Assembly (NCBI GenBank): GCA_009778325.1
Contig: WRJZ01000041.1
Span: 1-59,736 of the forward strand
Direction: 5' to 3'
Origin: Candidatus Endomicrobium neocapritermitis
GTDB lineage: Bacteria > Elusimicrobiota > Endomicrobiia > Endomicrobiales > Endomicrobiaceae
DNA: 59,736 nt
Shown: piece after piece, positions 17,432 to 20,168 of the stretch
How the letters are laid out: every line of letters starts with the position of its first letter
Numbering within the stretch: the stretch's first letter is position 1
Made by a program: the position numbers and the translations under genes
The notes under the pieces: generated by a model
Told to the model about the DNA's origin: nothing
Database searches by the model: none
Seen by the model: the letters and a program-made list of their open reading frames with translations, nothing else

Positions 17432-17827
17432 TTAGTAACCGAGCTGCTTAGCTCTCGTGTACACTTTAACTAATGAATATATTATCCAAAAAATCACAAA
17501 TGGTGTGAGTGTCGTTAACATCCTGGCTTCAACACTAGAACTAGCAGATGCAAAAATTCTCACTGCATAATAAAACCTAAACAAGAAGAAGGTTACTATT
17601 GACGCGCCAATACCTTTTCCGATATCTCCGATGATGATATACCCTAATCCCGGCCAAAATAATGTAAACCACAGCGCTAAAACTCTTCTTACAGATACGG
17701 ATAAGCCTTGATCAAACTTGCCTTCAGCTTCATCGCTCAGCCTCCGCACTGCCAATCTCAGAGCTTCTCTTTCTTTTTTTAACGATTCTAGATTTTCATT
17801 ATTATCTTTTATTTCTTCTGTATTCAT
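17432..17827 (-). CDS. Membrane protein with N-terminal coiled coil (paralogue 1)
   Basis: The 131-aa protein has a charged helix (residues 5-40, likely coiled coil). Hydrophobic segments follow at about 48-68 (RVLALWFTLFWPGLGYIIIG), 72-92 and 108-123. The block FWPGLGYIIIGDIGKGI resembles the P-G-L-G-x-x-Y-x-G motif of TM2-like proteins. The neighbour at 18025-18375 is a clear paralogue with identical stretches (TLFWPGLGYIIIGDI, RAKQLGY). The 3' flanks are also duplicated. Function unknown. Confidence 0.7.
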   Translation of the reverse strand: MNTEEIKDNNENLESLKKEREALRLAVRRLSDEAEGKFDQGLSVSVRRVLALWFTLFWPGLGYIIIGDIGKGIGASIVTFFLFRFYYAVRIFASASSSVEARMLTTLTPFVIFWIIYSLVKVYTRAKQLGY

Positions 17828-17888
17828 TTTTTTTCCTTTTTATATTTGGGTTTATCGAAAAACCCTAAAATACAAGCTTGATCAAAGG

Positions 17889-17998
17889 GTGCTGAACTTG
17901 TTTCAGCATCTCGGAAGTTTACTTCCGTAACTTGTTTCAGCATCTCGTCGTTAAAGACAAAAGACTAGACCCTGAAACGAGTTCAGGGTTGATGACAC
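17889..17998. repeat. Palindromic elements of the CCTGAAC/GTTCAGG type
   Basis: GCTGAACTTGTTTCAGC (17891-17907), CGGAAGTTTACTTCCG and ACCCTGAAACGAGTTCAGGGT (minus or plus, 17969-17989) are three hairpins in a row followed by GATGACAC. This is the same class as 15303-15385. They lie between the two paralogous membrane protein genes. Confidence 0.65.
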
Positions 17999-18024: not shown

Positions 18025-18375
18025 TTAGTAACCGAGTTGCTTAGCTCTTTTGTTCACTTTAACTAATAAATATATTATCCAAAAAATCAAAAATAGTTCC
18101 ATGGGCGCCCTCTCGGGACCAAATATTCTAATAACCAAGACGGCGGTTACTATTGACGCGGCAATACCTTTTGCGATATCTCCGATGATGATATACCCTA
18201 ATCCCGGCCAAAATAATGTCAGCGCCAGCGCTAAAACTCTTCTTATGGATAAGCCTTGATCAATCGGCTTGCCTTCAATTTCATGACTCAACCGCTGCAC
18301 TTTTAATCTCAGAACTTCTATTTCTTTTTTTAACGATTCTGCATTTTCATTATCTTTTGTTTCTTCTACGCTCAC
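18025..18375 (-). CDS. Membrane protein with N-terminal coiled coil (paralogue 2)
   Basis: The 116-aa protein parallels the gene at 17432-17827: acidic N-terminus, a coiled-coil helix (12-40), then membrane segments with TLFWPGLGYIIIGDIAKGI and a final RAKQLGY. The start is GTG with an AAGGAG ribosome site. Upstream lies a structured RNA with an intrinsic terminator (18454-18702) that ends 78 bases before this start, so the RNA may be its leader. Function unknown. Confidence 0.7.
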   Translation of the reverse strand: MSVEETKDNENAESLKKEIEVLRLKVQRLSHEIEGKPIDQGLSIRRVLALALTLFWPGLGYIIIGDIAKGIAASIVTAVLVIRIFGPERAPMELFLIFWIIYLLVKVNKRAKQLGY

Positions 18376-18453
18376 TTTTCTTCTCCTTTTATGAAATATG
18401 TGCCGCCGTATTACTTTTAATTTCCTCCTCTACATACGCCGGATTCTTATAAT

Positions 18454-18508
18454 AAAAAAAGCGGCGCATTATCATGAGTCCTACTAGAGCCTCACAATAA
18501 CCGCCGCC
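18454..18508 (-). terminator. Intrinsic terminator of the structured RNA
   Basis: On the minus strand GCGGCG...TATTGTGAG pairs with CTCATGATAATGCGCCGC around a 12-nt loop, then TTTTTTTATT follows. The loop contains TCTAGTAGGA, complementary to an upstream segment (18549-18559). Confidence 0.8.
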
Positions 18509-18702
18509 TTGTGCCACTAAGGGCACAAAGAAGAAATTATTTGTTTGGTCTAGTAGGACCTCTAAAAGGAAAACCCTTTTAGAACGCTTCGCGCTTTCGC
18601 GCGACCCGATTTATTGAGTTTTTGATAAGCTGTTTAGCTTACATATACTACAAATGTTCCTCGTTATCTTTTATCTAGGATAAATTTTATGCTGCTTATC
18701 AT
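18454..18702 (-). ncRNA. Candidate structured noncoding RNA or leader, about 249 nt
   Basis: A promoter (18708-18735) and terminator (18454-18508) bound an RNA with no coding capacity. On the minus strand it has, in order: AAGCTAAACAGCTT; a perfect TCGCGC-GAAA-GCGCGA hairpin with a GNRA loop; TCTAAAAGG-gtttt-CCTTTTAGA; and an 11-nt segment complementary to the terminator loop. Then come TTTGTGCC-CTTAGT-GGCACAA and the terminator. The GAAA loop reads as GNRA only on this strand, supporting the direction. It does not match tmRNA, RNase P, SRP or 6S as I know them. It could be a free sRNA or an attenuator for the GTG-start gene at 18375. Confidence 0.6.
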
Positions 18703-18707
18703 ATATA

Positions 18708-18735
18708 ATTATATTAAAAATAGCATTTTCATCAA
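18708..18735 (-). promoter_or_regulatory. Promoter of the structured RNA
   Basis: TTGATG (18730-18735) and TATAAT (18708-18713) on the minus strand with a 16-base spacer, just downstream of the nfnB stop. Predicted start near 18701. Confidence 0.6.
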
Positions 18736-18761
18736 AGTAATTATTCTCTATTATCTCTTCT

Positions 18762-20168
18762 CTATTCTCTGCCTTTAAGATATTCATTCATTCTTTTTGC
18801 GGCCTGCTTACCCATGCCCATAGCCTGGATTACCGTATCTCCGCCTACTATATCGCCGCCGGCAAAGATGCCGGGGATTGAGGTCATATAATTGTCATCT
18901 ATTATAAGGTATCCGTGGTCATCGGTTTTAAGTCCTTCAGTAAGAGAAGGAAGAACGGGATTGGGGTTTAATCCTAAAGCCAAAACCACCATATCGGTTT
19001 CTATTGTAAAATTTGAACCTTCAACTTTTTTTGGACGCCTTCTGCCTGATTCGTCCGGCTCGCCGAGCTCCATCCTTATGCACTCGACAGCCTTAACAAA
19101 CCCTTTTTCATCTCCGATAAATTTAACCGGATTTACAAGGGTTACAAACTCAATGCCTTCTTCTTTGGCGTGAAGCCGTTCTTCTTTTCTGGCAGGCATT
19201 TCATTTTCCGTTCTTCTGTAAACAAGCTTAACGCTTGCGGCTCCAAGCCTTAACGCGGTTCTTGCAGAATCCATTGCCGTGTTTCCACCGCCTACAACGA
19301 CAATATTTTTGCCTTTATAAACAGGCGTATCATAGTTTGGAAAATCAAAAGCGCGCATAAGATTTACGCGCACAAGAAACTCATTAGCCGAATATATATG
19401 ATTTAAATTTTCGCCTTCTATTCCTAAAAATACGGGAAGTCCTGCGCCCGTGCCTACAAAAATCGCTTTAAAGCCTTCTTCAAACAATTCTTTTATTGTT
19501 TTTGTTCTGCCGACAAGCGTATTTAAAACAAACTTTATCCCCAAATCTTTCAAATTATTTATTTCTATATCCAAAACATCTATAGGAAGTCTGAATTCAG
19601 GGATACCGTAACGCAAAACACCGCCGATATCATGCAGCGACTCAAAAACCGTCACATCATACCCCATGTGCGCCAAATCTCCGGCCGCCGTAAGCCCTGC
19701 AGGTCCGGACCCTATAACAGCAACTTTTATATTATTTGTTTTTGTCTTTGTAGTTGATTCGTAATTCGTCATTCGTAATTCGTAATTATCGTTTTTAGCC
19801 GCCCAATCAGCCGAATATCTTTCAAGATTTCCGATTGCGACGCTTTCGCCTTTTTTACCTAAAATGCAGTATTTTTCACACTGGTTTTCCTGAGGGCATA
19901 CGCGGCCGCATACCGCAGGAAGACTATTTTTATGTTTTAAAACTTTTATGGCAGCCGACGGATTATCCGCGGCAAGTTCTTTAATAAATCCCGGAATATC
20001 AATTTCAACGGGACATCCTTCTACGCAAAACGGTTTTTTGCACTGAATGCATCTTTTGGATTCCTCAAGCATTTGTTCGCGGGTGTATCCCGAGTTTACC
20101 TCTTTAAAATCTTTATTTCTTTCGTTGGCGCGCCTTTCCGGCATTTTCACTCTTTGCGGCATTTGCAC
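18762..20168 (-). CDS. nfnB: NfnB/GltD-type NADPH oxidoreductase large subunit with repeat insertion
   Basis: The 468-aa protein has an N-terminal double [4Fe-4S] domain (Cys motifs CIQCKKPFCVEGCP near 40 and CGRVCPQENQCEKYC near 88-101). An FAD-binding GSGPAGL (about 153) and an NAD(P) site GGGNTAMDSARTALRLGA follow. It pairs with the ferredoxin reductase-like subunit, overlapping its stop by 22 bases, as in NfnAB (ferredoxin-dependent NADH:NADP+ bifurcation) or SudAB. Residues about 126-138 (NYELRMTNYEST) are the in-frame translation of an intergenic hairpin word (19741-19791), sitting in the linker between the Fe-S and flavin domains. A shorter start at MPERRANERN would remove the overlap. 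Role: redox balancing; bifurcation is inference. Confidence 0.88.
   Translation of the reverse strand: MQMPQRVKMPERRANERNKDFKEVNSGYTREQMLEESKRCIQCKKPFCVEGCPVEIDIPGFIKELAADNPSAAIKVLKHKNSLPAVCGRVCPQENQCEKYCILGKKGESVAIGNLERYSADWAAKNDNYELRMTNYESTTKTKTNNIKVAVIGSGPAGLTAAGDLAHMGYDVTVFESLHDIGGVLRYGIPEFRLPIDVLDIEINNLKDLGIKFVLNTLVGRTKTIKELFEEGFKAIFVGTGAGLPVFLGIEGENLNHIYSANEFLVRVNLMRAFDFPNYDTPVYKGKNIVVVGGGNTAMDSARTALRLGAASVKLVYRRTENEMPARKEERLHAKEEGIEFVTLVNPVKFIGDEKGFVKAVECIRMELGEPDESGRRRPKKVEGSNFTIETDMVVLALGLNPNPVLPSLTEGLKTDDHGYLIIDDNYMTSIPGIFAGGDIVGGDTVIQAMGMGKQAAKRMNEYLKGRE
19741..19791. repeat. Half hairpin repeat read in frame inside nfnB
   Basis: TTTGTCTTTGTAGTTGATTC is followed by four ATTCGTAATT-like words, matching the right half of the element at 42535-42620 and that at 8433-8474. 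It is translated on the minus strand without a frameshift, in a linker of NfnB. Confidence 0.85.

Follow-up and report, generated by a model that had tools for sequence, protein, structure and literature searches.

A putative terminator/antiterminator attenuator RNA of Elusimicrobiota with copy-specific loop pairing

Introduction

A 59,736-nt stretch of DNA from Candidatus Endomicrobium neocapritermitis (assembly GCA_009778325.1, contig WRJZ01000041.1, positions 1 to 59,736; hereafter the window) carries on its minus strand, at 18454-18701, a structured leader RNA that lies between a glutamate-synthase-like gene and the gene of a small membrane protein. The leader is one copy of what, as judged from sequence, is a large undescribed RNA class, confined to Elusimicrobiota as far as searched and comprising two sequence subtypes with 119 aligned copies. 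From the alignments and the predicted folds, we consider it likely that these RNAs are cis-acting, bistable, four-segment terminator/antiterminator attenuators of transcription.

The consulted part of a genome study of Endomicrobia covers free-living and endosymbiotic lineages (PMC11257099), and that of a study of type IV filaments mentions Tad systems in Elusimicrobia (PMC6668835). In the portions consulted of two structured-RNA surveys (PMC8040213, PMC2864571), the string Elusimicrob- does not occur. A literature search found no paper on this RNA; most subscription journals lay outside that search, so that absence from print is not established.

Results

The leader RNA of the window

The initial annotation described a 249-nt noncoding unit with a promoter and a terminator. 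Its coordinates, its minus-strand orientation and its parts hold, but the unit is not free-standing: since a same-strand gene follows 79 nt past the T run and the copies of the class are nearly always closely followed by a gene, we regard it as a leader. Its parts, from 5' to 3' along the transcribed strand, are as follows.

18708..18735, minus: promoter-like site TTGATG-16-TATAAT, 10 of 12 consensus matches (sequence scan)
18454..18701, minus: whole leader RNA, from the inferred start to the end of the T run; covariance-model match 18455-18613
18650..18662, minus: segment 1 in this copy, P2 5' strand (GAGGAA/ATTTGT), predicted to pair with 18530-18544 in the terminator state
18625..18642, minus: P1 hairpin GTAAGCTAAACAGCTTAT, common to the copies of the genus, not to the whole class
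18590..18603, minus: P2a hairpin, CGCGC-GAAA-GCGCG, with a GNRA loop on the transcribed strand (fold)
18561..18583, minus: P2b hairpin (fold; the helix covaries)
18549..18559, minus: 5' strand of the loop pairing, GTCCTACTAGA, putative outer helix of the antiterminator and part of segment 2
18530..18544, minus: P2 3' strand, the rest of segment 2, predicted partner of either segment 1 or the terminator 5' strand
18509..18528, minus: P3 hairpin (fold; the helix covaries)
18478..18508, minus: segment 3, comprising the terminator 5' strand and, at 18488-18478, the 3' strand of the loop pairing
18454..18478, minus: segment 4, terminator 3' strand plus the T run (18460-18454)
18383..18389, minus: ribosome-binding-site-like AAAGGAG of the downstream gene (sequence)
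18025..18375, minus: downstream gene, a 116-aa small membrane protein (list of open reading frames, ORFs; a paralogue follows the second copy in this genome, C38 or L002)

The hairpins noticed in the initial annotation, including the one with a GNRA loop on the transcribed strand, were found at 18642-18625, 18603-18590, 18583-18561 and 18528-18509, in addition to the terminator, whose stem spans 18508-18460 and is followed by seven T. The complementarity it reported between the terminator loop and 18549-18559 is likewise exact: GTCCTACTAGA (18559-18549) matches TCTAGTAGGAC (18488-18478, within the loop that the terminator stem closes) over 11 bases, and only 2 of 5000 shuffled loops reached an 11-base match to the upstream leader. 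The leader fold is more stable than its shuffles (z = -5.45, 0/200). A simple terminator scan that admits loops of up to 8 did not list this terminator, because its loop is longer. Promoter-like sites number four in the whole window against 1.2 expected, and TTGYAA-17-TATAAT stands ahead of related copies in the same genome.

Copies in the phylum

Searching the organism's own genome gave a second copy (C38) that shares only about 40 bases with the window copy, at the 5' end, and has the same plan: a hairpin, an enclosed domain, a strand complementary to the terminator loop and then a gene. A pattern on the shared 5' hairpin led to further copies in the genus. As a route to the class, exact DNA similarity within the genus was rejected: it yielded only the short P1 stretch and nothing beyond the own genome, and the class was thus reached solely through the pattern and covariance models. 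The model confirms 24 of the 48 pattern loci, all of them in Elusimicrobiota and including Endomicrobium and uncultured Elusimicrobium; pattern matches outside the phylum (Planococcus, Ruminococcus, Polynucleobacter and others) and on two viral contigs were not confirmed and were set aside. A viral scan with the subtype II model found nothing.

Model R1, built from six copies without the loop pairing, has matches in 19 of 76 family genomes (E <=0.1) and in 78 of 340 phylum genomes (E <=0.001). Subtype II was found upstream of pilin-like genes, and its model, R3, matches 95 of the 340. With both combined, matches occur in 111 of the 340 genomes, that in genome G253 being weak and provisional. 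Two genomes, G110 and G172, give 57 and 54 R3 rows (E <=1e-4), some of them weak reverse-strand or partial matches.

The subtype I alignment (A5) has 53 rows, 52 distinct, from 52 sources at E <=1e-7, and leaves out the truncated or weak copies L076 and L081-L090. That of subtype II (A7) has 68 rows, of which 67 are distinct over the RNA plus 60 nt, from 67 sources at E <=1e-10; its sources do not include L200-L202, L204, L207, L211, L213 and L215, all of which except L204 are represented among other loci. Some copies are truncated or have internal deletions (L081-L083, L087, L088, L021), for example with the 3' half swapped for another terminator.

The RNA had been described as none of the familiar kinds, with an Rfam search named as a check, and this is borne out. 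Among the 4227 families of Rfam 15 there was no match near threshold to the window copy, and on 12 further loci the threshold was reached by tRNAs only; the best sub-threshold match on any copy was RAGATH-12 in L004, at 22.7 bits where 75 are needed. The T-box model matched neither the window copy nor the 12 further loci.

Covariation and the loop key

Covariation across relatives, the second check that had been proposed, is strong in both subtypes and the stems are conserved. In subtype I (52 rows) the helices comprise 46 pairs with 93.6% of alignment cells paired, 32 of them with double changes, and the covariation score is 0.492, against 0.224 when shuffled and at most 0.135 when slid. The corresponding values for subtype II (66 distinct rows) are 61 pairs, 96.8%, 46 pairs with double changes, and 0.511 against 0.209 and at most 0.115. 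G-U cells far outnumber A-C cells (227:25 and 385:32 in subtypes I and II, the order used for paired values throughout), which argues that selection acts on the structure as RNA of this strand.

To assess the loop pairing independently of the models, we set each copy's upstream strand against its own loop and against those of all other copies. An uninterrupted run of 8 or more Watson-Crick pairs with the own loop is present in 52/52 copies of subtype I (own mean 9.02, cross mean 3.81) and in 65/67 of subtype II (9.96 and 3.67), and none of 10000 permutations reached the own-partner mean in either subtype. These loop keys comprise 42 and 56 distinct sequences; the 19 copies compared from one genome have 19 different keys. 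Among the first 21 copies of subtype II (18 from that same genome; the pattern selection of this set missed L204 and L214), none of the 420 cross pairs reaches 7. Eight further copies, obtained with models that lack the loop pairing, have 8-11 loop pairs in every case. Six of them belong to other genera or families within the phylum, one is a divergent copy from the own genome and one is a subtype II copy from G059 already in A7 (L223); L284 was excluded, being the same copy as L140 in A5.

Within one genome the identity of the key is 44%, compared with 58-70% for P2b, P3 and the outer extra hairpin. The key is nevertheless ruled out as a uniquely variable helix, as the inner extra hairpin is equally low at 44%.

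Antiterminator versus terminator

The P2 3' strand is complementary not only to segment 1 but also to the terminator 5' strand, through AATAATCG with CGATTATT in subtype I and AACAGTCG with CGGCTGTT in subtype II. The mean run of this complementarity is 8.63 and 8.76 within a copy and falls to 5.69 and 5.52 across subtypes. Since the loop pairing and this helix are nested, together they would form one long 2:3 hairpin, incompatible with P2 (1:2) as well as with the terminator (3:4).

When the RNAs are truncated ahead of the terminator 3' strand, the helix between the P2 3' strand and the terminator 5' strand is part of the minimum-energy fold in 51/52 and 66/67 copies. As long as segment 4 is missing, the 2:3 state has a predicted mean advantage of 11.2 and 9.9 kcal/mol, and it is the favoured one in 52/52 and 66/67 copies. 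At full length, subtracting the predicted energy of the antiterminator state from that of the terminator state gives means of -3.2 (sd 4.0) and -6.2 (sd 4.2) kcal/mol. The two full-length states thus lie within a few kcal/mol of each other, close to the balance that a switch needs. For the window copy the predictions are -79.2 kcal/mol (terminator) and -82.8 kcal/mol (antiterminator), a difference of +3.6.

Complementarity between the stretch after the T run and the start of the RNA is evident in some copies, such as L058, L059 and L213, but amounts to 8 Watson-Crick pairs in only 6/51 and 17/67. In L058, L059, L060 and L064, GCGCTTCCAA after the T run, near the ribosome-binding site, is the reverse complement of TTGGAAGCGC at the RNA start, a feature of part of the class.

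Position and downstream genes

A same-strand ORF starts within 300 nt downstream in 46/52 and 67/67 copies, and the start codon lies at most 45 nt past the T run in 26/52 and 40/67 (66/119 in all), which leaves little room for another promoter. Among copies followed by at least 700 nt, an ORF of 60 aa or more on the same strand begins within 300 nt in 92/96, as against 63/102 for opposite-facing upstream controls. Upstream, a -10-like box is found in 26/52 and 54/67 copies (shuffled means 10.3 and 14.2). An ORF led by a ribosome-binding site and short enough for a leader peptide is present in 4/52 and 4/67 copies, compared with about 9-10% in shuffled controls, and a leader peptide overlapping segment 1 is not enriched over shuffled sequences in the 119 copies.

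Most copies stand 20-100 nt ahead of genes for type IV pilin-like, outer-membrane, lipoprotein, glycosyltransferase or DNA-methyltransferase proteins. A strict pilin N-terminus occurs downstream in 18/52 and 38/67 copies, and the four of these scanned are all N_methyl in Pfam. Pfam also identifies EcoRI-type and N6/N4 DNA methyltransferases after five Endomicrobia copies (L058-L061, L064), and glycosyltransferases of families 8 and 61, DUF4422, sulfatase-fold and outer-membrane-barrel proteins after others; putative lipoproteins were recognized by sequence. Four of the 20 downstream proteins scanned had no Pfam match. In L066, L071, L075, L077, L079 and L080 (genus g9), a second terminator-type hairpin, AGCGGCAATAC...GTATTGCCG-TTTTTT, directly follows the leader terminator.

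Genes with a type IV pilin-like N-terminus number 52-109 each in the Elusimicrobiaceae genomes G110, G172, G154, G091 and G095, and 3-4 in three Endomicrobiaceae. The idea that the RNA stands throughout the pilin genes of the complete-looking genome G154 (1,643,562 bp) was rejected: none was seen by eye in 20 upstream stretches (19 of the 20 regions fetched), and the models give one copy with R2 and none with R3. Pilin expansion therefore does not require the RNA.

Surroundings of the window copy

The upstream neighbour, named by eye from its sequence, is a glutamate-synthase-like gene (18762-20168, minus). Just 5' of the leader, at 18738-18762, a stretch of about 25 bases, GAGAAGAGATAATAGAGAATAATTA, has some 30 occurrences in the own genome, often as nearby inverted pairs. 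The downstream 116-aa protein has no Pfam match above cutoff. It is one of two tandem paralogous small membrane proteins (17432-17827 and 18025-18375) with the similar starts MNTEEIKDN and MSVEETKDN; a third paralogue is found after L002, and after L004 there is a shorter relative of the start. Repeat units like GAGATGCTGAAACAAGTTCAGCA lie at 17880-17985, between the two genes, and similar text occurs near L262.

Discussion

Proposed mechanism

Three pairings would form in turn: 1:2, which is P2 and closes the junction with P2a and P2b; 2:3, the antiterminator; and 3:4, the terminator. Here, segment 2 would consist of the P2 3' strand and the strand just before it, and segment 3 of the terminator 5' strand and the loop. 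On transcription, the nascent loop strand would meet its complementary single strand inside the P2 junction, and we infer that this contact acts as a toehold. From there, segment 2 would be peeled off segment 1 and would hold segment 3, so that RNA polymerase reads on into the gene. If P2 were held shut, or segment 4 made first, the terminator would form and transcription would stop. The junction of P2, P2a and P2b would presumably be the sensor. The initial annotation had left the choice between a pseudoknot and a terminator/antiterminator switch, and the switch is the better supported, with the loop pairing as the outer part of the nested antiterminator hairpin; to count as a pseudoknot, this pairing would have to coexist with a paired P2 and a paired terminator.

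Several observations weigh against the attenuator. The energy predictions omit pseudoknots and co-transcriptional kinetics. The complementarity between the P2 3' strand and the terminator 5' strand is nearly constant inside each subtype, so that support for this pairing comes from the change between subtypes; when the P2 3' strand is shuffled, the minimum-energy fold keeps at least 5 such pairs in 120/260 and 123/335 trials. In the window copy the usual P2 5' strand, GATTATTTG, is missing and an upstream strand is used instead, whereby segment 1 is displaced upstream of P1 relative to other copies. Several genus-g9 copies, with a second terminator hairpin or a distant gene, fit a stable small RNA better. 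Finally, two of the 119 copies, and only these, have mispaired loop keys (L253:260-469 and L262:1501-1712). The first combines the loop of L250 with another partner strand and the second precedes a truncated pilin gene; both look like mosaics, and the contig of L262, from a metagenome-assembled genome, may be at fault.

Alternative explanations

The g9 copies bear on the most serious alternative, a stable small RNA acting in trans and bounded by a promoter and a terminator of its own; the loop pairing would then be a true pseudoknot and the downstream gene separately transcribed. The discrete promoter-to-terminator unit, the tandem terminators in some g9 copies, the few genes more than 200 nt away and a full-length minimum-energy fold that contains the terminator P4 in 42/52 and 63/67 copies all agree with it. 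We regard it as unlikely, given the start codons close behind the T run (66/119) and the same-strand gene in 92/96 copies; moreover, most copies have their own loop sequence, and hence no shared trans target in that part. That copies stand before unrelated accessory genes, in differing neighbourhoods, suggests another possibility, namely that the structured element is a DNA-level mark of a mobile or recombination cassette, carried along with accessory genes, the RNA fold being secondary. In two genera, with different genes upstream, a copy is followed by an EcoRI-type methylase gene (L058, L064), and the two mispaired copies that look like mosaics, of which one stands ahead of a broken pilin gene, would fit as well. 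The roughly 10:1 ratio of G-U to A-C cells, however, points to selection on RNA structure, the upstream promoter boxes are enriched (26/52 and 54/67 against 10.3 and 14.2), and in the contexts read by eye no transposase or integrase is a regular neighbour, which makes a cassette very improbable.

Type III toxin-antitoxin loci have the order RNA, terminator, toxin. An antitoxin-like or protein-binding RNA of such a selfish module would share with the present copies the succession of promoter, structured RNA, terminator and gene, and toxin-antitoxin-like genes were seen by eye upstream of some copies. Nevertheless, the copies read by eye are single units with no tandem repeats, the downstream genes belong to unrelated families (pilins, methylases, glycosyltransferases, outer-membrane barrels) and no ToxN/CptN/TenpN-like family was found among the 20 downstream proteins scanned; we give this explanation hardly any credence.

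Comparison with known systems

At the level of sequence, the general hallmarks of attenuators are present: an intrinsic terminator between promoter and gene, and a mutually exclusive antiterminator pairing conserved by covariation. Riboswitch-type attenuators such as SAM-I combine a closing stem P1, an antiterminator and a terminator. The proposed attenuator, arranged like the expression platform of a riboswitch, resembles them in its four-segment logic, in a junction closed by a stem that shares its 3' strand with the antiterminator and in an intrinsic terminator before the gene. It differs in that no known aptamer sequence or Rfam match was found, that its antiterminator has a long copy-specific outer helix from the terminator loop and that it precedes surface and DNA-modification genes, with dozens of copies in some genomes. 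Attenuators of the trp/his type are ribosome-mediated and use the same 1:2, 2:3 and 3:4 scheme, but leader peptides are not enriched in the Elusimicrobiota copies. GEMM riboswitches, which respond to c-di-GMP or cGAMP, occur many times per genome before pilin and surface genes in Geobacter; multiplicity and the association with pilin and envelope genes are shared, whereas the architecture is different and Rfam gives no GEMM match.

Implications

Elsewhere, phase variation controls pilins, outer-membrane proteins, glycosyltransferases and DNA methyltransferases. The genes behind the RNA are of the same set and resemble these contingency genes of other bacteria, which suggests that the switch might create surface diversity; unlike in phase-variable loci, no simple repeats or invertible promoters were noticed, and the switch would be in RNA. 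Extended to the whole phylum, this would be an RNA contingency system. Each genome would contain dozens of bistable attenuators whose private loop keys pair only within their own copy, and a kinetic race at the toehold would flip surface (pilin, outer-membrane, glycan) and DNA-methylation genes on or off, so that cells would come to differ from one another with neither DNA inversion nor slippage. We put this forward as a speculation that is probably wrong in its full form. If it were true, recombination between copies would break the key and lock the gene in one state.

The attenuator itself would add a large undescribed regulatory RNA class, limited to Elusimicrobiota as far as searched, and it raises the question of whether one RNA design controls both the outer surface and the DNA modification of these gut bacteria, and by which signal. 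Furthermore, its copy-specific self-complementary loops would constitute a natural collection of numerous RNA switches with hardly any cross-pairing.
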